From Levilactobacillus fuyuanensis (lineage in GTDB: Bacteria > Bacillota > Bacilli > Lactobacillales > Lactobacillaceae), in NCBI RefSeq assembly GCF_003946395.1, contig NZ_RHNZ01000015.1, forward strand, positions 1-64,000: DNA of 64,000 bases, in the 5' to 3' direction. Made by a program: the position numbers and the translations under genes. The notes below the pieces were generated by a model that saw only the letters and a program-made list of their open reading frames with translations, did no database searches and had not been told where the DNA came from. Position 1 is the first letter of the stretch. Each line of letters starts with the position of its first letter. Below are positions 7,707-59,492 of this stretch, one piece after another.

Positions 7707-7890
7707 CGCCTTACCGGGGAAGGTAAATCAACCGGAACGCGGTGGGCGGACGCCCAGAGCCAAAGAACGGTCTCTGGGCTTACTTTGAGCCTCTAAGGAC
7801 CGAGTCTCAAAGCTACCAATTGGCTAAGCGGCAAGAAACGCCACTAAGCCACTTCCCACGGCTGAGTTGATTTGCCTTCCCCTCACGGCT
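7707..7890 (-). repeat. cloverleaf repeat, family A copy 1
   Basis: 184 bp in reverse orientation, downstream of the histidine kinase gene. Outer arms 7716-7732 and 7866-7882 pair over 17 bases allowing one G-U. The inner hairpin GCCCAGAG/CTCTGGGC closes the conserved ACCGC...GG loop. Ends match AGCCGTGAGG and CCCGGTAAGGCG, shared with the copies at 45482 and 46086. The rest of 7617-8050 holds no recognisable gene. Confidence 0.85.
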
Positions 7891-8050
7891 GACGTTGACT
7901 CACAGTAGCCACAATTTCTGTGTTATCGGCCTTCACCACTCAACTCTCTACATAAATCCTATCTGTGGTCACGCCGCCTACATTTGATGAAATCAGCAGC
8001 TCCACTTAATCACCTAAAATCCGGCTGATTGTGCACTAGTTAACATCTCG

Positions 8051-9517
8051 CTAATCCGTCTTGACCCGTTCCGAATTTGTTTGGTGTTGGTCTGGGAAAA
8101 TGACGGTGAAGGTTGTGCCGACATTTTCCTTACTGGTGACGCTGATCTTACCATGGTGCAACTGCACCAACTGGTGGACGATTGACAGTCCCAGACCAGA
8201 TTCACCATACTTGGTGTTCTTCCGCGATGGGTCAGCCTTGTAGTACCGTTCCCAGATATTCTGCAGTTGCTCATCACTCATGCCCATCCCCGTATCGGCG
8301 ACTTTGACGATGGTCTCCTCGTAACCCCGCTGAGCAGAAATGGTAATCGTCCCATCGTGAGTGAACTGGATGGCATTTTGTGTAATGTTAAACATAATTT
8401 GGACAAAACGATCATAATCGGCATATACAGGAATTTCGTTAGGTGCTTGTAATTCAAGGGTATCCTCGCTGTCATCAGCCTTTTGTTTTAATTGTTCTAC
8501 TATATTATGGAGTGCATCTACCGCATTGAATTCGTGAAGGTTGAGCGAAATCTGGTTGGATCGAATCTTTTCGTAGTCCAGATTCTCGTTGACCAGCCGG
8601 ATCAGGCGACTCGTTTCACTCCGCATTAAGTCGATACTTTCTTCCTTACTCTCCTCAGGAATGGCGTCATAGGCCAGTCCTTCCAACAATCCATTGATAG
8701 TCGTCAGTGGCGTCCGCATTTCATGTGAGGCATTGGCCATGAATTCACGGCGCCGTTGTTCCTGCCGCTGAATCTCTTCTTGTGAATCCTTTAGCGAGTG
8801 GGCCATGCCGTTGAAATCGTTGATCAAGTCATCAATTTCATCACGGTTTTTACTGGTCATTTCCACATCATAATTTCCTCGCGCAACCTGATTGGTGGCC
8901 TTTCGTAGCCGGTTGATCCGCGACGTATAGTAACGAGCCAGGATATAGCTGGCAACGATGGCGACCACGATGGATACCAGTAGCGCTCGGATCAGATTAC
9001 GATTGATTTGATTGACACTCGTATTGATATCGGAGACGAACGCCCCCATCACCACGACTGCCACGAGCTTGTGGTTGTAAAAGTAAGGTTTCATCACCTC
9101 AGTCATGGCCGGACTGACCCGACCATCCTTGTTTCGGACACGTCGGTCAACGACCTTGTGAATGATCTGGTTATTCTTTAGTTTTTTCCAGTCAGTCTGC
9201 TTAATGGACTGCTGATACACACTGGCTGGAAAGACGACTTTATTGCTGGCACTGTAGATGGTTGTACTGACTGCTTGGTTTTGCAGCAACTGCTCACTAT
9301 TTTCCAGAGCAGTCGTATCGAAATTAACCGCATTGCCATCTTGTGAACTAATCCGTAAAGACTGTTCAATCAAACTGTTCGAATATTTTTCAAGCGAATT
9401 CCAGGTATTGCTGTACACCATGTGCCTGGTCATTTGTGAGTAGGATACACCCATGATAATCAGGATAATCATGATTGCCGCAAAGAATCCCAGCATTTGT
9501 TGATACATTAGCTTCAT
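8051..9517 (-). CDS. membrane sensor histidine kinase
   Basis: 488 residues. First membrane helix about 8-27, an extracellular sensing loop about 30-172, second helix about 175-196, HAMP about 197-250, then HisKA with the phospho-acceptor His265 in ASHEMRTPL, and an HATPase_c domain (N box NITQNA, G box GESGLGLS). The start overlaps the stop of the response-regulator gene by 4 bases (ATGA), so the two are co-translated. The layout resembles PhoR/ResE-type kinases; the signal is unknown. A cloverleaf repeat follows the stop and no classical terminator was seen before the rlmI-like gene. Confidence 0.93.
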   Translation of the reverse strand: MKLMYQQMLGFFAAIMIILIIMGVSYSQMTRHMVYSNTWNSLEKYSNSLIEQSLRISSQDGNAVNFDTTALENSEQLLQNQAVSTTIYSASNKVVFPASVYQQSIKQTDWKKLKNNQIIHKVVDRRVRNKDGRVSPAMTEVMKPYFYNHKLVAVVVMGAFVSDINTSVNQINRNLIRALLVSIVVAIVASYILARYYTSRINRLRKATNQVARGNYDVEMTSKNRDEIDDLINDFNGMAHSLKDSQEEIQRQEQRRREFMANASHEMRTPLTTINGLLEGLAYDAIPEESKEESIDLMRSETSRLIRLVNENLDYEKIRSNQISLNLHEFNAVDALHNIVEQLKQKADDSEDTLELQAPNEIPVYADYDRFVQIMFNITQNAIQFTHDGTITISAQRGYEETIVKVADTGMGMSDEQLQNIWERYYKADPSRKNTKYGESGLGLSIVHQLVQLHHGKISVTSKENVGTTFTVIFPDQHQTNSERVKTD

Positions 9518-10248
9518 TGCTGATCTGCTCCACTATCATCAAATTTATAACCCACCCCCCAAACGGTTTGAATAATCTGGGGGCCAACCTTCTCAATCTT
9601 TTGCCGTAATTTCTTGATGTGCGCGTCCACAGTCCGTTCATCACCGTAGTACTCATAGTCCCAGACCAGCTGTAAGAGCTGTTCACGAGAGAATACTTGC
9701 CGGGGCTTCTGTGCCAAGGTCTTTAACAAGTCGAATTCCTTCGGCGTTAAATCGTGAATCTGCTGACCATTTAGGTAGGCTTCCCGCGTCTTGGTGTTGA
9801 GCTTGAAATTCTCCGTGACCACATCAAAGGATTCGGTATCGTCCAACGGTGCCGTCTCCACACCCTTGCTAATGGCGCCCAATCCAGCTCGTCGGTGGAG
9901 CGCCTTGATCCGGGCAATTAAGGTGATGGGGCTGAATGGCTTGGTAACGTAATCGTCCGCGCCCATTTCCAATCCCAGAACCTGATCACTCTCGGAATCT
10001 CGGGCCGTCAACATGATGATTGGTACGGTTGGCGATAATTTACGAATCTCGGCACTCACCTGCATCCCGTCCAGTCCGGGCAGGTTCAGGTCAAGCGTAA
10101 CCATATCCCAATCGTTGGGTGCGGCCTTAAACATTTCAACGGCTTCATTACCATCATAAGCAAATTCGGCGTCCCACTGCTCCTTCTTAAAGAACATGGA
10201 CATCATTTGTGATACTGAGTGGTTGTCTTCAATCATTAATAACTTCAT
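9514..10248 (-). CDS. OmpR-family response regulator
   Basis: 244 residues: a receiver domain with phospho-acceptor Asp53 (TLDLNLPG), Thr near 83 (MLTARD) and Lys near 105 (DYVTKPFSP), then an OmpR/PhoB winged-helix domain ending TVWGVGYKF. It is the partner of the kinase that follows. An in-frame extension 14 codons upstream is open, but the ATG at 10248 has GGAGGTAGCA ahead of it and gives the canonical MKLLMIEDN start. The leader contains a terminator-like hairpin with a competing alternative fold, so expression may be attenuated. Confidence 0.95.
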   Translation of the reverse strand: MKLLMIEDNHSVSQMMSMFFKKEQWDAEFAYDGNEAVEMFKAAPNDWDMVTLDLNLPGLDGMQVSAEIRKLSPTVPIIMLTARDSESDQVLGLEMGADDYVTKPFSPITLIARIKALHRRAGLGAISKGVETAPLDDTESFDVVTENFKLNTKTREAYLNGQQIHDLTPKEFDLLKTLAQKPRQVFSREQLLQLVWDYEYYGDERTVDAHIKKLRQKIEKVGPQIIQTVWGVGYKFDDSGADQQ

Positions 10249-10288
10249 TGCTACCTCCAAAGGTCGGGCTACTATATTCGGAGCCGGC

Positions 10289-10328
10289 AAAAAGGTTAGG
10301 AGTCATAGTGTCCTAAACCTACTAGGTT
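10289..10328 (-). terminator. possible attenuator in the response-regulator leader
   Basis: On the minus strand GGTTTAGGA (10319-10311) pairs with TCCTAACC (10301-10294) and is followed by TTTTTG, a terminator shape lying about 40 bases before the start codon. The preceding AACCT/AGGTT hairpin (10328-10316) uses the same GGTT, so only one can form. A TATAAT lies at 10416-10411 upstream. Confidence 0.5.
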
Positions 10329-10495
10329 AACCAGAAGCTTCCATGATAGAACGATGAAGTTTCTGTAACTTTTACCGGCGAGCCTGAGCCGCCTGGTTCC
10401 TTAACTATCTATTATACTATACTAAATATGGGTTTTTTCCCCTTTAATAGAAGCTAGACAGAATTCCCTTGCTTTCAAACAAGGGATGAATGCCG

Positions 10496-10915
10496 TTATC
10501 TCTTTCGTTGACTGGCAATGTAGTTTTCTACAGTTTTCTTGCTCATATCACCAAGGGTACTCATGAAGTAACTTGGAGACCAGAGATGACCACCCCAGAA
10601 ATTCTGAGCCTTTATTTCTGGATGTAATTCAAAGAATAAACGAGCCGAACCGCCCTTGAAGGCTTTGACAACATTGGTTGGGGCATACTTGGGTTTAAAG
10701 CTTAGTAGTAAGTGGATATGGTCCGGCATTACTTCCATTTGCTCAATGGTCACTTCGTTCAGTCGGGCTATTTTCGTTAGAATGTTGGTCATTTCAGCGA
10801 CTAACTGTGGCGTTGTAAATGCTTCATGCCGGTATTTGGTGACCCAGACCAAGTGAAAATGAAAGTTGTAAACATAACCTCGTTCGTGAATTGCTCCGCT
10901 AGTGTCTTTACTCAT
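10496..10915 (-). CDS. tnpA: IS200/IS605 family transposase TnpA
   Basis: 139 residues, full length for the HUH/Y1 single-strand transposase. The metal-binding HUH motif reads DHIHLLL (about 64-70) and the catalytic tyrosine lies in VENYIASQ near residue 132. The start ATG follows GGAGGTATCAT. With end hairpins still present, the copy may be mobile. It is divergent from the tnpB remnant, as in IS605-type elements. Confidence 0.95.
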   Translation of the reverse strand: MSKDTSGAIHERGYVYNFHFHLVWVTKYRHEAFTTPQLVAEMTNILTKIARLNEVTIEQMEVMPDHIHLLLSFKPKYAPTNVVKAFKGGSARLFFELHPEIKAQNFWGGHLWSPSYFMSTLGDMSKKTVENYIASQRKR

Positions 10916-11032
10916 ATGATACCTCCATAAATATTATTATAAGACGTTTTTTTATGAATACATTATACTCATATGGTATGCTCCTATCAAGCAAAAGGAG
11001 GTGGCAACTTATGGCGATGAGTATTTCGGACG

Positions 11033-11167
11033 TTGGCTGATTGCAAGTGGGCGTGTCCTAGTTGTGGCACGTTCCATGTACGTGATCACAACGCAGCTAA
11101 AAATATTTTAGCAAAAGGTTTAGCAACACTACAAGAAATGAGTCCGTCTGGCAACCTGCGGACTTAA
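11033..11167 (+). pseudogene. tnpB: TnpB remnant, C-terminal zinc-ribbon end only
   Basis: Forty-four codons keep the diagnostic TnpB tail: a CPSCG half of the zinc ribbon, then [12 protein letters not shown] with the last RuvC aspartate, and a stop TAA at 11165-11167. A ribosome site AAAGGAGG and ATG at 11011 survive just upstream but are followed by only nine codons and a TGA in another frame, so nearly all of the roughly 400-residue nuclease is deleted. It cannot be an active RNA-guided nuclease. Sequence downstream (11168-11250) may keep part of the guide-RNA end. Confidence 0.85.
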
Positions 11168-11303
11168 AAGGCTTTGGTAATTAGCGGATAAGTCCTATTC
11201 ATAGGCTAGTGTTATATCTATCACCATGCCGTGGGGTGCGGTTCTCACAAGCGTCTGTTTTTAAACGGACGTGGTTGACTTAGGTCTCACTGGTCAAAAT
11301 TGT

Positions 11304-11331
11304 TTGCACACGGCTGGAGGTATGTTAAACT
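11304..11331 (+). promoter_or_regulatory. candidate ssrA promoter
   Basis: TTGCAC, 16 bases, TAAACT, which would start a precursor just upstream of the mature 5' end at 11350. Confidence 0.5.
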
Positions 11332-11349
11332 AGATGAGTATCAATTTAT

Positions 11350-11717
11350 GGGGGCGTTCTGGATTCGACTGGTATAGGTTGAAGCTTGACTGCGCGTCGT
11401 AGCGGCATCTACGTTAAAAGGTCCAGTTTATTATAACTGCAAAAAATAATAACAATTCTTACGCTTTAGCTGCTTAATAGGCGCTTAACGTAGATCCTCC
11501 TAGGCTTGTCCGTGGTCTAGATCTGGGTCCTAAATTTAACGGACTTACGCTAACGACTCCCACCTGAAGTACGTTAGAAGAGAAAAATCAGGTTAGCTGT
11601 TCATGTTGGCCCTGACAGGCGGCAAGTTGTTCAGCGAAACTTTAAGTAGTCTGCCTATGCGTGTAGACGTTAAGTTGGCAATATGCTAGGACGCGGGTTC
11701 GATCCCCGCCGCCTCCA
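11350..11717 (+). ncRNA. ssrA: transfer-messenger RNA (tmRNA)
   Basis: The 5' end GGGGGCGTTCTGGATTCGAC and the 3' end GGGTTCGATCCCCGCCGCCTCCA form the tRNA-like domain with encoded CCA. The resume codon GCA at 11439 opens a tag frame reading AKNNNNSYALAA, with TAA at 11475-11477. tmRNA with SmpB rescues stalled ribosomes and marks the nascent peptide for degradation; the ALAA end is the protease signal. About 368 nt, standard one-piece form. The tag matches the type found in lactobacilli. Confidence 0.98.
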
Positions 11718-11723
11718 TCGATT

Positions 11724-11760
11724 AACCCGTTAGTTACGCGACTAACGGGTTTTTATTTTG
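11724..11760 (+). terminator. ssrA terminator
   Basis: AACCCGTTAGT and ACTAACGGGTT form an 11-bp stem with a 6-base loop, followed by TTTTATTTTG. Confidence 0.9.
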
Positions 11761-11992
11761 TCTAAAAATCTAGGTGGCTAACTTGATTATAGAATTCACC
11801 GTTAAATTTCTTCTATTGTTAATAGCCAGATTCTCTCATTCAATTATCCTTAAAATCATTCACCGCGTCTGACATCTAACGTCACCAAACCGTCTTAATC
11901 CGTCATTTGACTGATACCGCCCCGCAATTTTTGTTCGCTATACTAAATTCTGTAGTCAGGTAATTCGCTACAAAATACTTAGAAGATTGCGA

Positions 11993-12625
11993 GTGACATC
12001 TATCAAAACAACCACAACCAAAGTTCTAGTAAGTACCTTGGGCGCAACCGCCCTGCTCTTCGCCGGCACAACTACGGCGTCCGCCCACATGACCACGGAT
12101 ACGGGGAGTCAGACACCCCAGACGACGCAGGTCAGCGGTCAACACGCAATTCAAACAACATCAACAACCGCAACTGGAACGGTAACCGCCCAGAATACCA
12201 GCTACCAACATACCGCTACTAACAATTCTGCAACTACGACGGCCACAGCAGCTAATACCTCTACGACCACCACAACGAGTGCCAGCGGTGCCGTTGCTAA
12301 GGCCCTCGCCGTAGCGAATAGCGGCGTCCCTTACGTTTACGGTGGCAGTTCACTCTCCGGCTTCGACTGCTCCGGCCTGGTGCAATACGCCTTCGGTCTG
12401 AGCGCCCGGACCACCACCCAGCAAACGACCCTGGGAACCCACCACTACGACGTGGCCAACGCGCCTGCTGGTGCTATCCTCTTCTGGGGATCCGACAGCG
12501 CCCCCTACCACGACGGAATTTCTCTTGGAAACGGCCAATACGTTGCCGCCCAGAATGAAAACGATGGTATCGGCGTCTTCAGTCAAACTTACTGGCCAGC
12601 TAGCTACTACATCGTGGTTAACTAG
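11993..12625 (+). CDS. secreted NlpC/P60 peptidoglycan endopeptidase
   Basis: About 210 residues. A signal peptide with hydrophobic core TKVLVSTLGATALLFAG ends near ASA. A Thr/Ser/Gln-rich linker of about 65 residues follows, then an NlpC/P60 domain with catalytic Cys in FDCSGLVQ (about 126) and the His region YHDGISLG. Such enzymes cut cell-wall stem peptides. The start is uncertain: GTG at 11993, 7 bases after AGAAG, is preferred over the TTG at 11987. The region 11761-11986 shows no other gene. The low-complexity linker, without LysM or SH3 domains, suggests loose wall association. Confidence 0.88.
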   Translation: MTSIKTTTTKVLVSTLGATALLFAGTTTASAHMTTDTGSQTPQTTQVSGQHAIQTTSTTATGTVTAQNTSYQHTATNNSATTTATAANTSTTTTTSASGAVAKALAVANSGVPYVYGGSSLSGFDCSGLVQYAFGLSARTTTQQTTLGTHHYDVANAPAGAILFWGSDSAPYHDGISLGNGQYVAAQNENDGIGVFSQTYWPASYYIVVN

Positions 12626-12648
12626 CCACTACTCCTGAGTCAACCTAA

Positions 12649-12707
12649 AACTAGCCTTATCAGCAGTCACCATTTCACCGATGACCCTGATAAGGCTAGT
12701 TTTTTTG
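12649..12707. terminator. terminator between convergent genes
   Basis: AACTAGCCTTATCAG (12649-12663) pairs perfectly with CTGATAAGGCTAGTT (12687-12701), followed by T on the plus strand. Confidence 0.85.
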
Positions 12708-12745
12708 AAATCAACCGATTCTCTCTGCAACCGATTTATTGAAAG

Positions 12746-14113
12746 TTATTTTTCACCAAAATTCTGTAAGACCCGTGCCGTGTAGCGAGCAGCCTGAACA
12801 TAATCACTCACCCGAACATTTTCGTTAGGCGCGTGGGCCCCGGAACCGGCCCAAGTTGATCCGACGTCAATGATTGGCACACCCACCGCTTCAAAGAACG
12901 GTGCTTGGGGACCACTACCACCGGCATTAGGCACCAGCTTAACCGCATCCCCATAGACTTCATGGGCGGTAGCGACCGCCGTCTGCACGAAACTATCCGT
13001 CAGATCCGACCGGAAAGCCGGCTCCCCTTGATTGTAGGAGACATGAAGGTCGCTAAACCCATTCTTGTCCAACTGTTGCTGGACGAGCTCTGAAATGTGA
13101 CGCGGATCTTGGCCAGGAACCAACCGGCAGTCTAACTGGGCCCGGGCTTCCTTAGGCAAGACCGTCTTCAAGCCATTACCCTCATACCCACCGGAAATCC
13201 CGTTGATCGTAATCGTCGGTCGGTTAATTAAGGCCTCGGCTGGCTTATCCGACAGCAGTGGCAGTTTCAAGCCGAAGTTCTTACGCGTTGCTTCTTCATT
13301 AAAGGGTAATTGATCGACGGCCGCTTGTTCGGTTGGTGTTAAGGGTTTCACGCCATCGGTAAAACCATCCACCAAGACTTCACCCCTAGGACCGCGCAAT
13401 GTTGACAGGCCCTGAACTAACCGCCATACCGCATTATCCACGAAGGCGGCCAGTGAAGAATGCAGGTCACTCTCTGCTGACTTTGCGGTCACGTTGAAGC
13501 TGGCCGTGCCCTTGACCCCACAAGTCACCTGGAAATTCTCGTCGGCATCCTTACCGCCTGTTTCCCAAATAATCGCGTCGGCAGCCAAAGCAGCACCATG
13601 TTTCTTCGTCATGGGTTCAATGTGGGGACTTCCCACTTCTTCTTCCCCTTCGAGAATGAATTTTAAGTTACAAGGCAGTCCACCCGTTGCTTGTAACGCC
13701 TTAACTGCGGACAAGCGAAGCATAAACTCCCCCTTGTCATCGGAAACACCGCGAGCCACGTACTGACCGTTCTTTTCCGTTAACTGGAAGGGTTCGCTGT
13801 CCCACTCATCCAGTGGTTCGGCCGGCTGGACATCATAGTGGTTGTAGAACAACAGGGTTTTATCGGGATTCCCGTTTGGCCCTGCTGGTAGGGTCGCAAA
13901 TACGAAAGGATTACTACCCGGAATGTCCCGCCAGACCTCTACCTCGGCACCTAATTCTTGAAGGGATTGTTCAATTACACTAACCGTTTCCTCAATTCCG
14001 AGGTGCTTGGCAGCAACCGTTTCAATACTTAAATACTTGGCTAACCGGGGACGATCGGCTTCTAAGGCCTGATCGATGGCGGTTTGCAATGCGTCGGTAG
14101 TTTTCTCTGACAT
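12746..14113 (-). CDS. M20-family metallopeptidase (CNDP-like dipeptidase)
   Basis: 455 residues. It belongs to peptidase family M20 with two zinc ions: HYDVQP (His and Asp ligands), GVSDDKGE (bridging Asp), EGEEEVGSP (catalytic Glu and ligand Glu), and a late His in SGAHAPNE. A lid/dimerisation domain is inserted in the middle (about 185-360). Such cytosolic enzymes cleave dipeptides taken up by the cell. The second ATG (14113) is 9 bases from GGAG and is preferred to the ATG at 14119, only 3 bases away. The motifs resemble carnosine-type dipeptidases more than PepV, so I give no symbol. Confidence 0.9.
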   Translation of the reverse strand: MSEKTTDALQTAIDQALEADRPRLAKYLSIETVAAKHLGIEETVSVIEQSLQELGAEVEVWRDIPGSNPFVFATLPAGPNGNPDKTLLFYNHYDVQPAEPLDEWDSEPFQLTEKNGQYVARGVSDDKGEFMLRLSAVKALQATGGLPCNLKFILEGEEEVGSPHIEPMTKKHGAALAADAIIWETGGKDADENFQVTCGVKGTASFNVTAKSAESDLHSSLAAFVDNAVWRLVQGLSTLRGPRGEVLVDGFTDGVKPLTPTEQAAVDQLPFNEEATRKNFGLKLPLLSDKPAEALINRPTITINGISGGYEGNGLKTVLPKEARAQLDCRLVPGQDPRHISELVQQQLDKNGFSDLHVSYNQGEPAFRSDLTDSFVQTAVATAHEVYGDAVKLVPNAGGSGPQAPFFEAVGVPIIDVGSTWAGSGAHAPNENVRVSDYVQAARYTARVLQNFGEK

Positions 14114-14202
14114 AGACATTCGCTCCTTAAATTTTCACGAGCAACTCACTTGGCGGGAACTAGTGATTAACACTGTTGCTCGATTGCCTTTAACATTAAG
14201 CT

Positions 14203-14236
14203 TTGATGAGAAAAATGTCAAGATTATTCTCATCAA
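14203..14236 (-). terminator. stem-loop after the anti-sigma gene
   Basis: TTGATGAGAA (14203-14212) pairs perfectly with TTCTCATCAA (14227-14236), 4 bases past the anti-sigma stop. It lacks a T-run, so termination is uncertain. Confidence 0.35.
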
Positions 14237-14240
14237 GTTG

Positions 14241-15645: not shown

Positions 15646-15783
15646 GCTGTTCGCCTCCCCCTACACCTAAACAACGAATAACTCCCCAAAAAGGTAACGA
15701 TTATTTTCAAAAAGATCCGTCAGATAGCTGGAGTATACAGAATAGGATTCATTAAGGCGAGCTGATTGCCTAGCCAACGCAAA

Positions 15784-15821
15784 AACCGCAGACATCACGT
15801 CGAATTGTGATGTCTGCGGTT
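15784..15821 (-). terminator. distal terminator of the fumarase transcript
   Basis: AACCGCAGACATCAC pairs perfectly with GTGATGTCTGCGGTT and is followed on the minus strand by TTTTTG. It lies about 300 bases past the fumarase stop, beyond a cloverleaf repeat. Confidence 0.85.
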
Positions 15822-15915
15822 CCTTATTCACTATTAGATTACAGTTAATTTTTTACATATCCATGCAATTTTTTGAATAGTCAATCGACTATGCTTTAAG
15901 CCGACAACTTATCTT

Positions 15916-16098
15916 AGCCGGAGGAAGCCAAGATGTAGCCGGCCGTGACGATGACCTTAGCTGACGCTTTTGGTCAGGTTAGGTCATGGGACGAGCTTGG
16001 AGACGTCCGCATTTTGACGGCTTCAAGTCGAGGTAAAAGACCGCACTTCGGCTTTTACCGTTCCCCACAGCAGGCGGAATCCTGGCAGCCACAGGCGA
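15916..16098 (+). repeat. cloverleaf repeat, family B copy
   Basis: 183 bp between the fumarase stop and its terminator, antisense to that gene. P4 stem GGTAAAAG/CTTTTACC encloses ACCGC...GG. P3 reads CTTGGAGACGTC/GACGGCTTCAAG. P2 reads GACCTTAGCTGAC/GTCAGGTTAGGTC. It starts AGCCGGAGG and ends CAGGCGAC, followed by the shared CCCCACAGCAGGCGGAAT block inside. Confidence 0.85.
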
Positions 16099-16120
16099 CG
16101 GTCATCATCCATACAGAAGC

Positions 16121-22612: not shown

Positions 22613-22795
22613 TCGCCTGCGGCTGCCAGGGATTTCACCTGCTGTGGGGACCGGTCCAAGCCTAAGAGCGGTCTTGGGCCTCGACTTGAACCACGAAATT
22701 CACGTGGTTTCAAGATCGTCCCATGGCGTAAACTGGCAAAACACGCCAGCTAACGCCATCGACACGGCCGGCTCCATCCTTGGCCTCCTCCGGCT
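22613..22795 (-). repeat. cloverleaf repeat, family B copy
   Basis: 183 bp, reverse orientation, between licD and the polyphosphate operon. P4 GGCCCAAG/CTTGGACC encloses ACCGC...GG. P3 CTTGAAACCACG/CGTGGTTCAAG. P2 GGCGTTAGCTGGC/GCCAGTTTACGCC. The shared CCCCACAGCAGG block is present. Confidence 0.85.
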
Positions 22796-27537: not shown

Positions 27538-27566
27538 AAGAGTGCAGAAGAAGGCGGTTAGCTGGC

Positions 27567-27791
27567 GAGCATTAACATCATAAGGAGAAAAATCCCGGGT
27601 TTGGATTATTCTTCTTATGGGGTTAAGCGCAACCAGCTGCCTTCTGGCGCACGTTTCGGCTAGAGATAATTAGAGGAAGGCATCGAGCATTAACGTCATA
27701 AGGAGAAAAATCCCGGGCTTGGATTATTCTTCTTATGGGGTTAAGCACAGCTGGCTGCTCCTTGGCGCACGTTTCGGCTAGAGATAATTAG
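27567..27791 (+). repeat. tandem 107-bp direct repeat with hairpins, in the ppx2 3' region
   Basis: Two copies, 27567-27673 and 27685-27791, exactly 107 bp each and 11 bp apart. They differ at ten sites, all transitions. Each contains CATAAGGAGAAAAATCC facing GGATTATTCTTCTTATG (15 of 17 paired) and ends in the identical block GCACGTTTCGGCTAGAGATA. An outer TTAAC/GTTAA pair encloses the hairpin. Confidence 0.9.
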
Positions 27792-27825
27792 CGGAAAAGC
27801 CCTACACAAATCCAAATAAACCACA

Positions 27826-34626: not shown

Positions 34627-34808
34627 AGCTGGAGCCAGCCAGGGGTGGCGACGGCGTTAGACCGGGTGTCTGATTTTTCCCGGCCTTACACCGTGGGACA
34701 CGCTTGGAAACTCGCCCGAACCTGATGAGGTTTCAAACCAAGCCGGAAGCCCGGCCTTTGGCTGCAGGCAGTCCCCACAGCGGCAGAACCCCTGACTGGC
34801 GCAAGCGG
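34627..34808 (+). repeat. cloverleaf repeat, family B copy
   Basis: 182 bp between the stop of the 102-residue gene and its terminator, antisense to it. P1 CCAGCCAGGGGT/ACCCCTGACTGG, P2 GGCGTTAGACCGGG/CCCGGCCTTACACC. P3 and P4 are more altered (AGCC...GGCT around CCGG). Confidence 0.8.
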
Positions 34809-38493: not shown

Positions 38494-38667
38494 TTTAAAT
38501 CATAACAAGTTTTTCGGAATTAAACAGGGGGTAATTCTGATAAAAGTAGCCTAAATTCACACTGGGGTTGGGTGGAAGGATTGTTGCGAATTTTTTTGAT
38601 GATCGGATTGGAGAAGTAAGAGAACTTTGGTTAGTGTGGTTTCAATTTTTTATGTTGACTTAGTGAT

Positions 38668-38833
38668 CTGGACTGGTTCTTGCCTTGATATCCGGAAATA
38701 TGCGACCTTCGAAACGTGTTCAGTCGGGCAGGACCCTGCGCTTAACCCAGATAAGCACCGGCTCGGCTCTGCCAAGCAGGCACTTATCTACGTTAATGCT
38801 CAGGACCTACCGCCCGCCTTCACACTCTGGTCA
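38668..38833 (+). repeat. family C repeat, copy 1
   Basis: Shares TTGATATCCGGAAA, GGCAGG-CCCTGCGCTTA and AATGCTCAGGACCTA with the copy at 38926. Its inner hairpin is different in sequence (AGATAAG/CTTATCT) but keeps pairing. The 38494-39265 stretch holds these repeats and no gene. Confidence 0.75.
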
Positions 38834-38834
38834 A

Positions 38835-38893
38835 AACGAGTTCCGCAAGGCAGGTCCTTCCGCTTAGAAAGCTAAGGACTCCTGTCCGGCATA
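38835..38893 (+). repeat. family C repeat, truncated copy
   Basis: Left-half fragment matching copy 2 over GCAAGGCAGGTCC, CGCTTAGAAA and GACTCCTGTCCGGCATA, then stops. Confidence 0.65.
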
Positions 38894-38925
38894 TCTTTTA
38901 ATTTTTGTGTTGGTTTAAAGAGTTA

Positions 38926-39089
38926 GACTGGCTCTCGCCTTGATATCCGGAAACTTGAGGCCTCTGAAACGCGTTCACCAAGGCAGGTCCCTGCGCTTAG
39001 AAAAATAAGAGACTCCTGTCCGGCATAGCCGAACAGAAGCCTCTTATTCCCCTAATGCTCAGGACCTAAGCGCCTTGGTTCTCGCTCTT
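38926..39089 (+). repeat. family C repeat, copy 2
   Basis: About 164 bp. Outer pairing CCAAGGC-GGTCC with GGACC-GCCTTGG. Inner hairpin AATAAGAG/CTCTTATT encloses CTGTCCGGC/GCCGAACAG. Confidence 0.8.
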
Positions 39090-45481: not shown

Positions 45482-45665
45482 CGCCTTGCCGGGTGGCGAA
45501 AATAATCCGGAACGCCTGGGCGGACGTCGGAAGCCACAGAGCGGTCTTCCAACTGAGTTTTGAACCTCCAAAATCGAGTTTCAAAGCTCCCAATTCTCTA
45601 GGTGGCCAAACCCAGCCACCAAGAGAATTCCCACGGCTGGAATTATTTTCACCACCCTCACGGCT
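45482..45665 (-). repeat. cloverleaf repeat, family A copy 2
   Basis: 184 bp, reverse orientation. P1 GGGTGGCGAAAATAATCC faces GGAATTATTTTCACCACCC. P4 GTTGGAAG/CTTCCGAC (one G-U) encloses ACCGC...GG. The same ends as the copies at 7707 and 46086. Confidence 0.87.
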
Positions 45666-45816
45666 TACACTAGTTCAAATCATTCAAATAGTGTCTGCAG
45701 TAAACCACAGATGCACGCATACTGTTCATCTGCAAATTTATCTATCACTTAACCCCGCTATTCCAGTCAAACTGATGTGACACGACTCACAACAGACGCC
45801 ATTAAAAACCGAACGT

Positions 45817-45998
45817 AGCCGCAGGCGGACAGGGATGGAGTCGGCTGTGTCGATGGCGTTGGCTGGCGTCTCTTGGCAGCCTACCCCATGGGACACCTTG
45901 GAGACACGCGATTTTCGTGGCTTCAAGGTGAGTCGTCAGACCACTTTCTGGCTGACGGCGTTCCCCATAGACGACGGAATCCCTGGCCGTCAAAGACA
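45817..45998 (+). repeat. cloverleaf repeat, family B copy
   Basis: 182 bp. P1 GGCGGACAGGGAT/ATCCCTGGCCGTC. P2 GGCGTTGGCTGGC/GGCAGCCTACCCC. P3 CCTTGGAGACACG/CGTGGCTTCAAGG. P4 GTCAG/CTGAC around ACCAC...GG. Confidence 0.85.
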
Positions 45999-46085
45999 AC
46001 CCCGACGCTTCTAAATTGAAGCTAACGAGTCGACCGACAGTCAGCGTGGAATTGCCACTCGCAAGTAGCAAATTCACACAGCATA

Positions 46086-46269
46086 AGCCGTGAGGGTGGC
46101 ACAAATGAACTCAGCGGTGGGAATTATCTTAGCGGCGCTTTTTGCCGGTTAGATAATTGGTGTCTTTGAAACTCGTTTCTCAGAGGTTCAAAGCAAGCCT
46201 AAAGACCGCTTTTTGGCTTTAGGCGTCCGCCCTCCACGTTCCAGTTCATTTGTGCCACCCGGTAAGGCG
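46086..46269 (+). repeat. cloverleaf repeat, family A copy 3
   Basis: 184 bp, directly after the glmM stop. P1 is a perfect 18-bp stem (46094-46111 with 46243-46260). P2 AATTATCTTAGCGGC/GCCGGTTAGATAATT, P3 CTTTGAAACTC/GAGGTTCAAAG, P4 GCCTAAAG/CTTTAGGC around ACCGC...GG. Confidence 0.9.
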
Positions 46270-50426: not shown

Positions 50427-50432
50427 AGGTTC

Positions 50433-50731: not shown

Positions 50732-50789
50732 AGCCGAACGACTAATCTGGTCCCCACAGCAGGCGGAATTACTAACAGCCGCAGGCGAC
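50732..50789 (+). repeat. cloverleaf repeat, internally deleted copy
   Basis: Begins AGCCG like family B, then jumps straight to the 3' block GGTCCCCACAGCAGGCGGAAT and the end GCCGCAGGCGAC; P2, P3 and P4 are missing. It lies just after the antiporter stop. Confidence 0.7.
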
Positions 50790-50812
50790 AATTTTCAATT
50801 CCCAGAATTAGC

Positions 50813-52954: not shown

Positions 52955-52981
52955 ATAAGGTTCCCCCTTCTTTTTTTAGAC

Positions 52982-53887: not shown

Positions 53888-54192
53888 CAAATTCCCTTCG
53901 TTTCTCAAAAGTTTGTGATCGGTTTGACCTGTCACTGGCCAAACGAACAACAGTCATAGGGCTATTTTACCATGGAACCCCCTACCATCGCACGCTGGGT
54001 GCACTGATTCACAGAAAATATCATGAGAAATGAGGATTTCTATGTGGGCTTACTGAAAATCGAGTCGGGTAAGATGGCAGCTCGCTGTTGAGGCATACCC
54101 GAAATCACTTTTGACGAAAGTCCGCTACTTCTTAGCAAGGCTGGCTGAGTCATAAGTCCGGTGCCGATATTTAATGTTGAACAACTATGTGT

Positions 54193-54386
54193 AGCCGGAG
54201 GCAGACTGGGATGTAGCCAGCCGTGTCGATGGCGTAAGCACGGGGCTAGCCCCTTCCCGTGCTTACGGCATGGGACGACCTTGGAGACTCGCCGGGGTTG
54301 CGAGGCTTCAAGGCGAGGCTAAAGACCGCTTCTCAGGCTTTAGCCGGTCCCCACAGCAGGCGGAATCCCAGTCTGCCGCAGGCGAT
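54193..54386 (+). repeat. cloverleaf repeat, family B reference copy
   Basis: 194 bp in the divergent murB-xth space. P1 GGCAGACTGGGAT/ATCCCAGTCTGCC, P2 GTAAGCACGGG/CCCGTGCTTAC, P3 CCTTGGAGACTCGC/GCGAGGCTTCAAGG, P4 GGCTAAAG/CTTTAGCC around ACCGC...GG. All four stems pair. Bases 53888-54192 otherwise contain no gene. Confidence 0.92.
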
Positions 54387-54494
54387 AATTTTAACTACCT
54401 ATTTTTAAACATTAATAGTCCCTGCGTGGGCGAAACGGACACGATATGGTCATGCCATCTGGTATACTGGGAAGTAGCAGTTGGAGGTGCACAG

Positions 54495-55259
54495 ATGAAA
54501 TTTATTTCATGGAACGTCAACGGCCTACGGGCTATTGTTAAAAAAGGATTTGTCGATACATTTAAGGAAATGGACGCCGACTTCTTTGGCATCCAAGAAA
54601 CTAAGTTGCAGGAGGGTCAGATTGACCTCGACCTCCCCGGTTACTACCAATACTGGAACTACGCCGAACGTAAGGGCTATTCCGGAACGGCTTTGTTTAC
54701 CAAACACAAACCGCTAAATGTCATCTACGGCATCGATTCGCCCGACTTTGATCACGAAGGCCGGACAATCACCCTGGAATACCCCGACTTTTACGTGCTG
54801 ACCTGCTACACGCCAAACTCTGGGAGTGGTCTCAAACGACTCGACTTTCGGATGGGCTGGGAAACGGCCTTTCTCGATTTCATTAACCAGTTGAACGCCA
54901 AGAAGCCCGTCATCTTCTGTGGCGACCTGAACGTGGCGCACACGGAGATCGACCTGAAGAATCCCAAAACGAATCACAAGAATGCCGGCTTTACCGATGA
55001 TGAACGGGAGAAATTCACGGCCCTCCTCGCCGCCGGCTATACCGATACCTTCCGTTACTTCAATCCGGATGCTACGGAACGTTATTCTTGGTGGAGCTAT
55101 CGGTTCCACGCCCGCGATAACAACGCTGGGTGGCGTATCGATTACTTTGTCACCAGCGAACGCTTGCAAGACCATTTAAAAGACGCTAAAATACTAGACC
55201 AAGTCATGGGTTCCGACCACTGTCCGGTGGAACTCGACGTCGACGGTTTGACCGTCTAA
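54495..55259 (+). CDS. xth: exodeoxyribonuclease III (AP endonuclease)
   Basis: 254 residues of the exonuclease III/APE family: MKFISWNVNGLRA, metal-binding Glu35 in FGIQETKLQ, GDLNVAHTEIDL (catalytic Asp/Asn pair) and MGSDHCPVEL with the active His. It cuts at abasic sites in base-excision repair. The ATG at 54495 follows GGAGGTGCACAG. The open frame continues upstream into the cloverleaf repeat, which is not coding. Confidence 0.96.
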   Translation: MKFISWNVNGLRAIVKKGFVDTFKEMDADFFGIQETKLQEGQIDLDLPGYYQYWNYAERKGYSGTALFTKHKPLNVIYGIDSPDFDHEGRTITLEYPDFYVLTCYTPNSGSGLKRLDFRMGWETAFLDFINQLNAKKPVIFCGDLNVAHTEIDLKNPKTNHKNAGFTDDEREKFTALLAAGYTDTFRYFNPDATERYSWWSYRFHARDNNAGWRIDYFVTSERLQDHLKDAKILDQVMGSDHCPVELDVDGLTV

Positions 55260-55285
55260 ATTCACTCTGAAAGGATGAGGCACTT

Positions 55286-55822
55286 TTGAATTTCGTTGCT
55301 ATGGATTTTGAAACGGCTAGTGGCAAACGCTACAGCGCCTGTTCACTCGCGCTAACCATTGTGCGGGACAGCCAGGTCGTCGATGAATTCTACTCATTGA
55401 TCAAACCCGATACTGATTTTTTCTGGCGGAACGTTCAGATTCACGGGATTCACGAACGCGACGTGGCCAACGCCCCTGCCTTCCCCGAAGTCTGGGAGCA
55501 CGTCGCCCCCTTCTTCCAACGGGATCGGTTGGTGATTGCCCACAACGCCCCATTTGATAACGGCGTTCTGCGCAGTACCCTGGAACACTACAATTTACCA
55601 ACCCCGCGTTACCTGACGTTGGACACGGTCAAGACCAGTCGGAAGTTCTTCCCAGAATTTCCCAATCACAAGCTGAACACGGTCTGTGACGAACTGGGCA
55701 TCGACCTCCATCACCATCACAACGCGCTGGACGATAGTTTGGCCTGCGCCAACATTCTGCTGTACGAGGCCAATCACTTTGGCACACAGCCTTTGAAGAA
55801 CTTTGTGACGGTAAATGCCTAA
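55286..55822 (+). CDS. DnaQ-like 3'-5' exonuclease (DEDDh)
   Basis: 178 residues, a stand-alone exonuclease domain like the epsilon subunit of DNA polymerase III: Exo I AMDFETASG, Exo II AHNAPFDNGVL, Exo III HHHNALDDSLACA. Proofreading or nucleic-acid trimming. The start is TTG at 55286 after AAAGGATGAGG, 26 bases past xth, so both may be one operon. Confidence 0.88.
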   Translation: MNFVAMDFETASGKRYSACSLALTIVRDSQVVDEFYSLIKPDTDFFWRNVQIHGIHERDVANAPAFPEVWEHVAPFFQRDRLVIAHNAPFDNGVLRSTLEHYNLPTPRYLTLDTVKTSRKFFPEFPNHKLNTVCDELGIDLHHHHNALDDSLACANILLYEANHFGTQPLKNFVTVNA

Positions 55823-55874
55823 CGCTACTGAATTTGCCCTATACTATTACTAATGTAAAAAATGGGATTATTGT

Positions 55875-55945
55875 CTCAACTTTTTTGACAAAATAGGCTT
55901 TGTACCAACCCGATATCGCGTCCAAAGCCTTGTGACAATTGACTT
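55875..55945. other. unexplained inverted repeat
   Basis: AGGCTTTG (55895-55902) and CAAAGCCT (55923-55930) form a perfect stem around 20 bases. TTGACA- and TGACAA-like segments sit outside it. No T-run follows, so it is not a typical terminator. Confidence 0.45.
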
Positions 55946-55981
55946 TGACAGTTTGTAAAGAAAATATCTAATCACATACGA

Positions 55982-56016
55982 AAAGGCACTGACCAGGAAA
56001 TCCTGATCGGTGCCTT
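55982..56016 (-). terminator. terminator of the tsaE-GNAT unit
   Basis: AAGGCACTGACCAGG pairs with CCTGATCGGTGCCTT (two wobbles), followed on the minus strand by TTTTCG. Confidence 0.8.
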
Positions 56017-56029
56017 CTTAAATAACGGC

Positions 56030-56539
56030 TTAATTTAACTGGTACACCATTTCAACAGCTTGGACGTGCTCGCCATCATCGTCGGTCACCGTCTCCGGTG
56101 GCGTCTGGGTCCGGGCAAAGCCCATCTTTTCGTAAAGCTTCATTGCAGGGACATTTCGCGTCTGCACGATCAGTCCGATTGCCTGCAGGTCACTCGCCGT
56201 ATCCGCCCAGTAGAGAGCCTCATCGACTAGTGCCGTGCCGATGCCCAGGTGCCAATATTTCTTCTCGACAGCAATGCCCAGTTCACCCACGTTACCTTGT
56301 GGTGTTGGTGAGATCGACAGAACGCCCAGCAGCTGGTCGCCAAGACACGCCACCAACAATAAGTGGACCGGGCTCTCCTTGATCTGTTCCAGCTGATCAG
56401 CCTCTTGCGCCGCACTGATGGGATCATCCGCATCGGCCAAGCTAAAGGTGTCACTCTCTTGTTGCAAACGTTCCAGCAATGCCAGCAAAGCCTTCGCGTC
56501 AGTTGCATTCGGCAAGCGAATGGCCACTTCATCACTCAT
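56030..56539 (-). CDS. GNAT-family N-acetyltransferase
   Basis: 169 residues with the GNAT core: acetyl-CoA loop KKYWHLGIGTALVDEAL (about 93-109) and the C-terminal VQTRNVPAMKLYEKMGF. The start overlaps the tsaE stop by 8 bases. In other bacteria tsaE is often next to the ribosomal acetyltransferase rimI, but this one is longer and may have a different substrate. Confidence 0.87.
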   Translation of the reverse strand: MSDEVAIRLPNATDAKALLALLERLQQESDTFSLADADDPISAAQEADQLEQIKESPVHLLLVACLGDQLLGVLSISPTPQGNVGELGIAVEKKYWHLGIGTALVDEALYWADTASDLQAIGLIVQTRNVPAMKLYEKMGFARTQTPPETVTDDDGEHVQAVEMVYQLN

Positions 56540-57008
56540 TGGTGCCGTCCTCCAGTTGTTTCACTAATTTTTCGAAATGGGACCCACGAGGTTCGAACCG
56601 TAACGTCCGCTGACTTTCGCCAGCCTCATCGTCACGCTTGAACACAATTCGCAGGTAGTCCTCGGGGAGTTCATCCGCAATGAATTTCGACCATTCGACC
56701 ACGTTGACCCCGTCACCATTGAAATACTCATCGAGCCCCAGCTCATCACCACCGCCCTCTTCCAAGCGATAAACGTCCATGTGGTAGAGTGGGATTCGCC
56801 CCCCCTGGTATTCACGAATGATGGTAAACGTTGGGCTCTTCACGTTACGCGTGATGCCCAAACCAGCAGCCAATCCTTTGGTAAAGGTCGTCTTGCCGGC
56901 ACCGAGGTCCCCATCGAGTAGAATGACATCGCGCGGTTGTAAGTCCGGTGCCAGTTGTTGCCCAAGAGCCATTGTGGCTTCAGGACTTGTGACCGTTACT
57001 TCATACAT
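56532..57008 (-). CDS. tsaE: tRNA threonylcarbamoyladenosine biosynthesis ATPase TsaE
   Basis: 158 residues. P-loop GDLGAGKTTF (about 33-42), the TsaE signature KSPTFTIIREY and the YHMDVYRLE motif. Works with TsaB and TsaD to form t6A37 on ANN-reading tRNAs. It follows pta on the same strand, but a repeat and a terminator lie between. Confidence 0.95.
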   Translation of the reverse strand: MYEVTVTSPEATMALGQQLAPDLQPRDVILLDGDLGAGKTTFTKGLAAGLGITRNVKSPTFTIIREYQGGRIPLYHMDVYRLEEGGGDELGLDEYFNGDGVNVVEWSKFIADELPEDYLRIVFKRDDEAGESQRTLRFEPRGSHFEKLVKQLEDGTNE

Positions 57009-57091
57009 TGTCTCTTTCCCCTTTTACTTTAAACTAAATTTGATTCATCATCGTTGTCCAAAACATCCTGTACGACTCACCTTACAAATAA

Positions 57092-57124
57092 TACCCGGAC
57101 TGCTTGAAAATAGCAATCCGGGTA
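57092..57124 (-). terminator. terminator past the pta repeat
   Basis: TACCCGGA pairs perfectly with TCCGGGTA, with TGCT/AGCA inside. A short T-rich tail (ATTATTTG) follows on the minus strand. Confidence 0.65.
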
Positions 57125-57154
57125 CCTTAAAGTTGATTTAACTGATGTTTCGAG

Positions 57155-57350
57155 ATCGTCTGCGGCTGCCAGAAATTCCGCCTGCTGTGGGGACCGCCTA
57201 CAGCCAAAGAACGGGCTTTCGGCTCGCTTGGAAGCCTCGCTAAAATTCAGCGAGTCTCCCAAATCGTCCCATGCTGTAACTCCGGGAAAGAACAACCACC
57301 CGGACTAACACCATCGTCACAGCCAGCTACATTTCTGGCCTCCTCCGACT
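57155..57350 (-). repeat. cloverleaf repeat, family B copy
   Basis: 196 bp, reverse orientation, so sense to pta, whose stop is 99 bases away. P1 GGCCAGAAAT/ATTTCTGGC, P2 around TCCGGG/CCCGGA, P3 TTGGGAGACTCGCT/AGCGAGGCTTCCAA. The shared CCCCACAGCAGGCGGAAT block is exact. Confidence 0.88.
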
Positions 57351-57448
57351 GAAATACATCAGCTAACTAATTTTCTGTGTATACCTATTAATTTCATTTC
57401 AATATTTAGCCAACTAGATCAGATAACATGAATTGCGTAAGCTACTAT

Positions 57449-58426
57449 TTAGTCTAGTGATTGCGCAGCCGTGATGATGGCTACCTTGTAGACATCCTCT
57501 TCGTTGCAACCCCGTGACAAGTCAGAGACTGGCTTGTTCAGGCCTTGCAGGATCGGTCCAATGGCTTCAAAGCCGCCGAAGCGTTGGGCAATCTTGTAGC
57601 CAATGTTCCCGGATTGTAATTCTGGGAAGACAAAGACATTCGCGTGACCCGCAACCTTGGAGTCTGGGGCTTTTTGTGCCGCCACACTCGGTACGAAGGA
57701 TGCATCGAATTGTAACTCCCCGTCGACGGCCAAATCTGGTGCCGTTTCGTGGGCAATCTTCGTGGCCTCTTGTACCTTGGTGACCATGTCACCCTTGGCA
57801 GAACCCTTGGTGGAGAAGCTCAGCAAGGCAACCTTAGGATCGATGTCGAAGACTTTGGCGGTATGGGCACTTTCGATAGCCACTTCGGCCATCCCCGGTG
57901 CATCGAGTTCGATGTTAATCGCACAGTCGGCGAAGACATAACGTTCTGCACCCTTTTGCATGATGAAGGCCCCACTGATACGCTTAACACCTGGCTTGGT
58001 CTTAATAATTTGTAAGGCCGGCCGAACGGTATCACCGGTGGCGTGAATCGCACCGGAGACCATCCCATCTGCTTGGCCCATGTAAACCATCATGGTCCCG
58101 ATGTAGTTCGGATCTTCCAACATCTTGGCGGCTTGTTCAGGCGTGTTCTTGCCCTTCCGCCGGTCGACTAAGGCATCGAGCATTTCTTTATGCTGATCTG
58201 CTGGAATCGTTGATGGGTCTAAAATCGTCAAAGGTTCCAGATCAATGGCGTTGTTAATCGCCGTGTTTTGAATCTCACTCTGTTTGCCTAAAACGACGGC
58301 TTTGATCAGGCCGTCAGCGGCCAAACGACTCGCTGCGCCTAATACCCGAACGTCTGCGCCTTCTGGAAATACAATGGTTTTGTTTTGTCCGTTGATCTTT
58401 TGTTTAAGACTATCAAAAAGTTCCAT
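57449..58426 (-). CDS. pta: phosphate acetyltransferase
   Basis: 325 residues, normal for the short Pta/EutD class. It interconverts acetyl-CoA and acetyl-phosphate; in heterofermenters it helps balance NADH through ethanol or acetate. Motifs: MVYMGQADGMVSGA (about 113-126), the signature around KPGVKRISGAFI, and GHANVFVFPELQSGNIGYK near 265. The ATG follows GGAGGTCATCATAT. Downstream of ung in the order usual for lactobacilli (ung-pta-tsaE). Confidence 0.96.
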   Translation of the reverse strand: MELFDSLKQKINGQNKTIVFPEGADVRVLGAASRLAADGLIKAVVLGKQSEIQNTAINNAIDLEPLTILDPSTIPADQHKEMLDALVDRRKGKNTPEQAAKMLEDPNYIGTMMVYMGQADGMVSGAIHATGDTVRPALQIIKTKPGVKRISGAFIMQKGAERYVFADCAINIELDAPGMAEVAIESAHTAKVFDIDPKVALLSFSTKGSAKGDMVTKVQEATKIAHETAPDLAVDGELQFDASFVPSVAAQKAPDSKVAGHANVFVFPELQSGNIGYKIAQRFGGFEAIGPILQGLNKPVSDLSRGCNEEDVYKVAIITAAQSLD

Positions 58427-58469
58427 ATATGATGACCTCCATAAAATATCCCACGAATCAATTCTGTAC

Positions 58470-59192
58470 CTATGCTTGTTGGTTGGTTGTAGTGTTGGGC
58501 CCGTCGTCAGCGGTCACGTGTTCAGGCAACTGCCAGTCGATGGGCGTCTCACCCAATGATGTTAATGCGATGTTGGTCTTGGAAAACGGCTTGGAACCGA
58601 AGAATCCCCGGTAAGCCGATAAGGGGCTGGGATGCGGTGCTTGCAAGACGATGTTGGTCTTGGTATCGATCAGCTTGATCTTGGAGCGTGCCGCCCCACC
58701 CCACAGGATGAAGACGACCGGTTCCGGCCGTGCGGATAGCTTGGAAATCGCTGCATCAGTCAGCCGTTCCCAGCCATGCCCCTGATGCGAGAAGGCCTTG
58801 CCATACCGGACGGTCAACACGGAGTTCAAGAGCAGTACGCCTTGTTTGGCCCACTTCTCCAGATACCCATGATTTACCGGTTGAATGCCTAAGTCATCCT
58901 GCAATTCCTTATAAATATTCTGTAACGATGGTGGCAGCGGCGTTCCCGGCAAGACCGAGAAGCTACAGCCGTGTGCCTGTCCGGGGTTATGGTACGGATC
59001 TTGCCCCAGGATAACCACCTTGACCTTGCTAAACGGCGTCCATTCGAACGCGGTAAAAATATGATACATGTCCGGATAGATCTCGTAATGCTGGTACTCC
59101 GAGACTAAGAACTGGCGTAATTGTTGATAATATTCCTGTTCAAACTCGGGCTCCAGAACCGGCCACCAATCATTATGAATAAACGGTTTCAT
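58470..59192 (-). CDS. ung: uracil-DNA glycosylase
   Basis: 240 residues, family 1 UDG. Removes uracil from DNA. Motifs: [17 protein letters not shown] (catalytic Asp in GQDPYH) and [15 protein letters not shown] (catalytic His in HPSPLS). The ATG at 59192 is 8 bases after GAGG; the TTG three codons up is too close to it. Confidence 0.96.
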
Positions 59193-59310
59193 TCCCAACA
59201 CCTCACGCTTTTATTCTATCATAACCACGCGGTAAATGATATTGTCGAACGTGACCGAGAAAACATGTTAGAATGAGAATAACTAAGATGGACTTCCAGA
59301 ACTAGTCGTT

Positions 59311-59492
59311 TCGTCTGCGGCAGGCGGGGGTATCGCCCCATGAGGCAAACCTGGAGCCACAGTGCGGTCTCCAGGGCGCCTTTGAGCCTTATGAACCAAG
59401 TCTCAAAGGTCGGCCAGTGGTCTAAGCCTGGCCAAAGTTCTGCCAAGCTAAGACCACCGACACGGGGCAACACCCCCGCCTGCCTCCGACTG
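59311..59492 (-). repeat. cloverleaf repeat, family B copy with GC-rich stem
   Basis: 182 bp, reverse orientation, between divergent ung and the LURP-like gene. P1 GGCAGGCGGGGGT/ACCCCCGCCTGCC is perfect. P2 GGTCTTAGC/GCTTAGACC; P4 CCTGGAG/CTCCAGG around ACCGC...GG. The CCCCACAG block is replaced by CCTCATGGGG. Confidence 0.85.

Follow-up and report, generated by a model that had tools for sequence, protein, structure and literature searches.

Ten dispersed copies of a cloverleaf-folding repeat lie in a 64,000-nucleotide stretch of the Levilactobacillus fuyuanensis genome (contig NZ_RHNZ01000015.1, positions 1 to 64,000; hereafter the window). We consider it probable that they belong to a chromosome-wide family of miniature, non-coding and non-autonomous transposons of the Lactobacillaceae, of the miniature inverted-repeat transposable element (MITE) class. 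The branched fold of the core is preserved by compensatory change on one strand, well-preserved units end in terminal inverted repeats (TIRs) between target duplications, and gene gaps gain and lose copies with gene order unchanged. What is new here is the MITE interior, whose branched fold is maintained on one strand despite wide sequence divergence and which stands head to head when doubled.

The original prediction, made from the letters of the window, placed ten copies in it and proposed a covariance-model search. We built such a model, R1, from nine of the ten copies (34628 left out). R1 found all ten copies where they had been placed, at 97-181 bits, including the unused copy 34628 at 97 bits, together with five weaker shadows on the opposite strand. 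The copies had been measured at 182-196 bp; by R1, the cores span 177-192 nt.

Folded singly, most of the ten copies show the same architecture by eye, and two copies fold far more stably than their shuffles (z -8.2 and -7.1). An outer stem with three inner hairpins had been described, and a fold common to the copies was indeed found, but it has two junctions rather than one ring of three hairpins. The first joins the base stem, P2 and P5, and the second joins P5, P3 and P4. The core of ∼180 nt is made up of a GCC/GGC clamp, a variable long P1, a short stem, the three-way junction with P2 and then P5, which opens into P3 and P4. An AGAC/GGCT motif is common to P3 and P4 (by eye). Three finer details of the predicted fold also held: the conserved pairs of P4, whose CC/GG is invariant in nine of nine aligned copies, the internal mismatch of P2 that is kept across copies, and an 18-bp base stem in the copy at 46087. 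Copy 34628 appears to have lost part of its base stem. Pairing continues tens of bases outward past the core. Lastly, a short form of ∼145 nt carries only one of the two hairpins P3/P4 and is found in other genera, in some Levilactobacillus genomes (G033 and G004) and in L. fuyuanensis itself.

It had been claimed that the stems change from copy to copy yet stay paired. When nine window copies were aligned by sequence alone, and pairs were counted on the consensus fold, 82.1% of cells paired. Changes on both sides occurred in 36 of 66 pairs, as against 20.6 in shuffles, and none of 500 shuffles reached 36. The covariation score of these copies was 0.393, compared with 0.171 when shuffled and 0.078-0.152 with the partners slid. 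Significant covariation, on which the original prediction had staked the fold, was assessed with a phylogeny-preserving null scripted in the manner of R-scape (G-test, average-product correction, null alignments in which the inferred changes of each column are scattered over a FastTree tree, cut-off E < 0.05). Every significant pair in this test fell inside the fold: two of two for the nine window copies, 19 of 19 for 73 L. fuyuanensis copies in an alignment fitted to R1, and seven of seven for 18 short copies from several genera in a sequence-only alignment. In the short copies, both sides had changed in 41 of 49 pairs, 93.5% of cells were paired and the covariation score was 0.589 vs 0.193 when shuffled.

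The mispaired cells distinguish the two strands. Using a MAFFT alignment of 85 L. fuyuanensis copies, onto which the pairs of a single copy's fold were projected, and omitting two pairs in which G-T is the commonest type, we counted 208 G-T cells vs 57 A-C cells (p = 2e-21). The ratio was alike in copies that stand in pairs (105:27) and in single copies (103:30), and the asymmetry was weaker in the 18 short copies (26:15). The excess of G-T over A-C indicates that the structure matters on one strand, here called plus, as RNA or single-stranded DNA.

The ends of the mobile unit were found outside the core. In four composites (two from G013, a probable L. koreensis, one from L. hammesii and one from G010, a probable L. 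hammesii), homology reaches into the outer flanks toward a common end, which is clear on the right in three of the four and weaker on the left. A 14-bp TIR, CTAAAGGTTGAAAG, was read from one G013 unit, and it recurs in units that end CTAAAGGTTGAAAG...CTTTCAACCTTTAG. Among the collected loci, 25 units of 332-637 bp have at most four TIR mismatches over both ends (at most two per end in 23 of them), whereas each of 12 shuffled TIRs gave no pairs. Scoring a duplication as 7/7, or as at least n-1 of 8 or 9, we found a target duplication of 7-9 bp in 11 of the 25 units (sizes 9, 8, 7, 8, 8, 8, 9, 8, 7, 7 and 8), compared with 33 of 9596 re-paired flanks (0.34%). Of nine units with no more than one TIR mismatch, eight carry the duplication. 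Cores are present in 22 of the 25 units: 14 have two, all head to head (-)(+), and eight have one. The other three have no core at E 1e-8, and two of these have a duplication. Because most loci were chosen for an A-type motif, the proportion of units that contain cores depends on that choice, whereas the ends and duplications are free of it. The units thus display the short, non-coding body, the terminal inverted repeats and the target duplication of a MITE.

This bears on the predicted choice between a structured RNA and a hairpin-recognized mobile element. The fold is kept by covariation and the element is mobile, as proposed, but recognition of a hairpin was not supported: the TIRs and 7-9 bp duplications lie outside the fold, which points to a transposase that recognizes double-stranded ends. 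Insertion into pre-existing hairpins and inverted copying of the target, both suggested by the complementary outer arms, were set aside once TIRs and duplications emerged. These arms may be part of the unit.

Comparison with relatives showed turnover. Across the 44-60 kb block of the window, gene order is kept in 20 relatives (two of the stretches end early). Their stretches gave 63 match rows, and 49 were used after dropping 12 opposite-strand shadows and two partial matches. Of these 49 copies, 40 lie in the 13 anchored gene gaps. They occupy only five of the gaps, every one of which is filled in some relatives and empty in others. For instance, 16 of 18 anchored relatives have no copy in the gene gap of core 57158, and a pair stands there in G030 and G013. 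A clean gain was seen in G013, where a 624-bp unit has a 9-bp duplication and the site is empty in both G002 and G007. Losses leave scars, as shown by residual pieces in G015 and G011 of a copy still present in G012 and G020. In three gaps, L. fuyuanensis and its closest relative, G019 (∼90% alike), hold different subtypes, and a continuously aligned G019 counterpart exists for 13 of 30 L. fuyuanensis copies, some of the others being at the ends of G019 stretches. One fused remnant stands in G019 where the window has cores 45488 to 46263, and a full core in G019 (L070:9971-10214) corresponds by alignment to the window remnant at 50739. Copies therefore come and go while their surroundings stay in order, which is the insertion polymorphism of a MITE.

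The copies are also ordered relative to each other. Taking copies < 700 bp apart as neighboring pairs among 137 L. fuyuanensis copies (64 from stretches chosen for copies), 30 of 34 pairs were head to head, with three and one tandem and none tail to tail. Among at least 150 copies in G030, the 21 pairs divided as 19, 1 and 1, with 19 head to head and, again, none tail to tail. The spacer of the head-to-head pairs measured 68 to 119 bp in 14 of 19, and a high-scoring (A-like) core faced a low-scoring one in 14 of 15 pairs inspected. A further 21 loci gave 13 of 13 pairs head to head by eye. Certain spacers appear homologous across loci and species, and promoter-like sites occur in 4 of 20 spacers, a count without a control.

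Using R1, we obtained at least 150 scored matches, of 503 candidates, in the L. fuyuanensis genome (2.72 Mb, 54 contigs). In 464 kb of it (the window and 20 stretches of 20 kb), 102 matches comprised 73 full copies, one copy split at a stretch end (two rows), one partial copy and 26 opposite-strand shadows. This extrapolates to ∼430-440 copies per genome, a rough figure as the sampled contigs had known matches. With a crude caller, 28 of 137 copies overlap an open reading frame (ORF), 23 of them ORFs under 160 aa. Within the genus, R1 matched 33 of 35 genomes, L. fuyuanensis included, with at least 77 matches each in 21 of these. The other two, G011 and G024, have no match; G011 retains deletion scars of copies, implying that the family can die out. 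Matches were found in 111 of 397 genomes and 11 of 40 genera of a family-level sample, and in 27 of 395 genomes of an order-level sample, five of them outside the family with one match each (E 2e-7 to 7e-5). One of these five, G524, belongs to another Lactobacillales family; searched alone, it gave ten matches of ∼162 nt (E up to 0.1, and under 0.01 for seven of them; loci L317 and L320-L328), a multi-copy family of similar architecture by eye. A short-type model, R2, matched only L. fuyuanensis among 398 genomes of the class under strict filters with seven candidates scored per genome, and we accordingly claim no spread beyond the order. Pattern matches on a viral contig (L241, the only one) and in Acidobacteria and Uliginosibacterium genomes gave no model match, and the latter were counted as chance; a bare pattern match was also seen in Rhodocyclales (L211).

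In well-preserved copies, a 14-bp inverted repeat stands at each end of the unit, separated by tens of bp from the interior, which is either one core or two head-to-head cores with a spacer between them; the 7-9 bp duplication flanks the whole. We infer that an unseen element provides a DDE-type transposase in trans, which would recognize the inverted repeats and insert by a staggered cut of ∼8 bp. The ten window copies would be examples of old copies in which recognizable ends have gone while the folded core survives. Several observations weigh against this transposon reading. No recognizable TIR borders any of these ten (best 11/14, on one side), so their membership rests on core homology. 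The outer flanks of L. fuyuanensis copies have a TIR of at least 11/14 in only 3 of 137, a weak signal over a control of 0.4%. A comparably small excess appears on the spacer side (11 of 65 at 10/14, control 6.6%), although no end should lie there. The outer sides of 30 L. fuyuanensis and 15 G030 pairs have no inverted or direct repeats beyond chance (one or two above the 95% control per test). The one L. fuyuanensis unit that combines good TIRs with two cores (L292, C1:43380-44000) lacks a target duplication. In 37 further copies (eight in the genus, 29 outside), the exact TIR was met once, on one side and in another genus, suggesting that other genera may use other ends. As to an autonomous partner, the collected loci, rather than whole genomes, were searched and gave three IS-sized TIR pairs, none with a duplication. 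It is also odd for an active transposon that blastn found no match in plasmids with three Levilactobacillus queries or one G524 query, nor in phages with one query. Lastly, L. fuyuanensis cores are GC-rich (0.51-0.67), unlike typical MITEs.

With less assurance, the fold may work in RNA. Whichever side transcription comes from, a head-to-head pair yields exactly one core in sense. A sense core could process, stabilize or let through the host transcript (relief of polarity) and so make insertions harmless; we favor such a role in read-through RNA, by which insertions would become tolerable. A fuller version, which we put forward only tentatively, is that the sole cargo of the element is a conserved single-strand cloverleaf working as RNA in host transcripts, with the head-to-head order giving one working copy from either side. 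It would be an old module, with relatives across the Lactobacillales and one (short form) or two (long form) AGAC/GGCT hairpins, spread by borrowing different transposon ends. Two results count against an RNA role. Single copies in co-directional gaps lie 20 in sense and 21 in antisense, which weakens a role at the level of the host and leaves one in the element's own life cycle. Cores orthologous between L. fuyuanensis and G019 differ at 295 of 2390 positions (12.3%), much as their flanks do (430 of 3635, 11.8%).

The same two results bear on the idea that the cores are host RNAs, regulatory or processing, selected at each place, with the transposon ends only a vehicle for occasional spread. 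We think this unlikely. The strong covariation, the one-strand asymmetry and the presence of the AGAC/GGCT motif in both P3 and P4 agree with it, as do distant relatives that other families of the order carry in one or a few copies. Three streptococcal-type relatives match positions 152-209 of RF02616 (SSRC8, a Streptococcus small RNA) at 32-38 bits, far under the gathering score of 72 and over one hairpin region only, and the window has no such match; a Northern signal for the SSRC8 RNA is reported in PMC3675131. However, host RNAs selected in place are at odds with the lack of sense bias, with cores that change no slower than flanks, with losses that leave deletion scars and with two genus members that have no R1 match at all. 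A cis-regulatory leader was rejected because orientation to genes is inconsistent and all three kinds of gap are occupied, and a replication-strand element because copies among the at least 150 in G030 are unbiased between contig halves (40/40 and 38/32, the origin being assumed at the contig start).

Covariation could also arise by mutation, if template switching toward perfect palindromes and conversion between copies change both arms together; as a sole cause we judge this quite improbable. The outer arms are hardly conserved in sequence among L. fuyuanensis copies and are nevertheless complementary within a copy: flank-flank pairing was -26.1 vs -18.8 kcal/mol for re-paired flanks in 71 single copies, and -27.1 vs -18.7 kcal/mol in 60 paired copies. 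The 13 orthologous cores differ from G019 by 4% to 22%, their neighboring flanks by 5% to 16%. Of 839 orthologous stem pairs, 689 were the same, 41 had changed on both sides and stayed paired, 44 had changed on one side and stayed paired, 50 were broken and 15 gapped. The double changes are clustered in some copies and fit replacement or conversion as well as selection. Yet DNA template switching should favor neither strand, whereas G-T cells far outnumber A-C cells (less so in the short form), and the loops and single mismatches persist where correction would have removed them.

Bacterial interspersed mosaic elements (BIMEs) are paired repetitive extragenic palindromic (REP) sequences of ∼40 nt each, moved by the REP-associated tyrosine transposase (RAYT). 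Inverted repeats and target duplications are foreign to transposition by HUH enzymes. BIME- or REP-like movement by a Y1 (HUH) transposase recognizing a folded single strand is therefore very improbable here, although inverted and often heterotypic pairs of folded units, their intergenic position and number per genome, the one-strand fold and four Y1 transposase genes in the genome recall it: the cores are ∼180 nt, target duplications and inverted repeats are present, and no core lies within 1.5 kb of the four Y1 genes, whose loci (PF01797, 3.4 kb) gave no R1 match at E up to 1.

The family was expected to be absent from Rfam, and only tmRNA matched in the window. Twenty related loci likewise gave no gathering-level Rfam match. 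Literature searches, with most subscription papers beyond their reach, found no description of the cloverleaf family. Two reviews (PMC10969869, PMC2229807) cover Correia/NEMIS, ERIC, RUP and BOX, bacterial MITEs whose transcripts fold; they too are short, non-coding, intergenic and high in copy, with TIRs, target duplications and a stable transcript fold. The reviews present them as long stem-loops in which one end pairs with the other, CIR with its two arms being an exception. In the present elements, by contrast, the interior is a two-junction cloverleaf maintained across genera through many compensatory changes; a unit holds one cloverleaf or two, and two stand head to head. The words Lactobacill- and Enterococcus are absent from the text of both reviews. 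For Enterococcus faecalis, PMC2267715 gives Efa-1 as a 163-nt family of 65 members, close in length to the ∼162-nt G524 matches. Kinship of our family with Efa-1 or Efar is a lead only. The Efar repeats of E. faecalis (Venditti et al. 2007) are the foremost candidates for a relative.

The copies in the window are listed in Table 1.

Table 1. Cloverleaf cores and remnant in the window, with R1 scores and the arms of one core
Feature	Position	Strand	Remarks
Core, subtype B (GCCGTGAGGG...CCCCGGTAAGGC)	7713..7889	-	R1 108.6 bits; within co-directional gene gap
Core, subtype A	15917..16096	+	R1 176.1 bits
Core, subtype A	22615..22794	-	R1 172.0 bits; apparent deletion scar at site in G019
Core, degenerate A type	34628..34806	+	R1 97.3 bits; aligned counterpart in G019
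Core, subtype B, left half of head-to-head pair with 45818	45488..45664	-	R1 135.7 bits
Core, subtype A, right half of head-to-head pair with 45488	45818..45997	+	R1 168.5 bits
Core, subtype B	46087..46263	+	R1 114.9 bits
Remnant, 3' end of A-type core	50739..50802	+	Repeat families D5, D12; under the reach of R1
Core, subtype A, top-scoring match of genome	54194..54383	+	R1 180.7 bits
Arms P1 and P2 of core 54194	P1 54200-54212/54365-54377; P2 54229-54244/54256-54271		Counted on its predicted fold
Arms P3 and P4 of core 54194	P3 54279-54292/54300-54313; P4 54317-54345		Counted on its predicted fold
Core, subtype A	57158..57349	-	R1 166.9 bits
Core, subtype A, long base stem	59313..59490	-	R1 155.6 bits

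Three loci elsewhere stand out by their gene context, read by eye. A short-type core of L. fuyuanensis, L289:1501-1647 (C19:2233-2379), with long outer arms, lies between an apparent hisS T-box leader and hisS, where it seems to be tolerated within a regulated 5' leader. Core L094:5027-5212 lies between apparent ruvA and ruvB genes, on the same strand as both. In two streptococcal-type genomes, a single-copy relative with the sub-threshold SSRC8 overlap is found between purD and purE (L282:5972-6110 and L283:5809-5946).

The window has other features as well. An IS200-type Y1 transposase gene (10496-10915, minus strand; PF01797, 132 bits) adjoins the tmRNA gene (11350-11720). A gap after a gene holds a tandem direct repeat of 2 x 113 bp with 90% identity (27566-27796, D1). 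Three imperfect repeat copies in the gene gap at 38647-39009, spaced 122 and 133 bp (families D4 and D6), share GGCAGGTCCCTGCGCTTA-like ends and are unrelated to the cloverleaf by eye. At 60327-63985, neighboring ORFs of 582 and 546 aa share repeat families D2, D9, D15 and D20 and hence look paralogous.

The family reaches hundreds of copies per genome across many species of a genus relevant to food, and it bears on annotation, operon prediction and strain typing. The many divergent copies within one genome amount to a natural mutagenesis experiment on the fold. They also pose a testable question: does RNA structure persist in non-coding transposons because it helps them to move, or because it lets the host tolerate their insertions?

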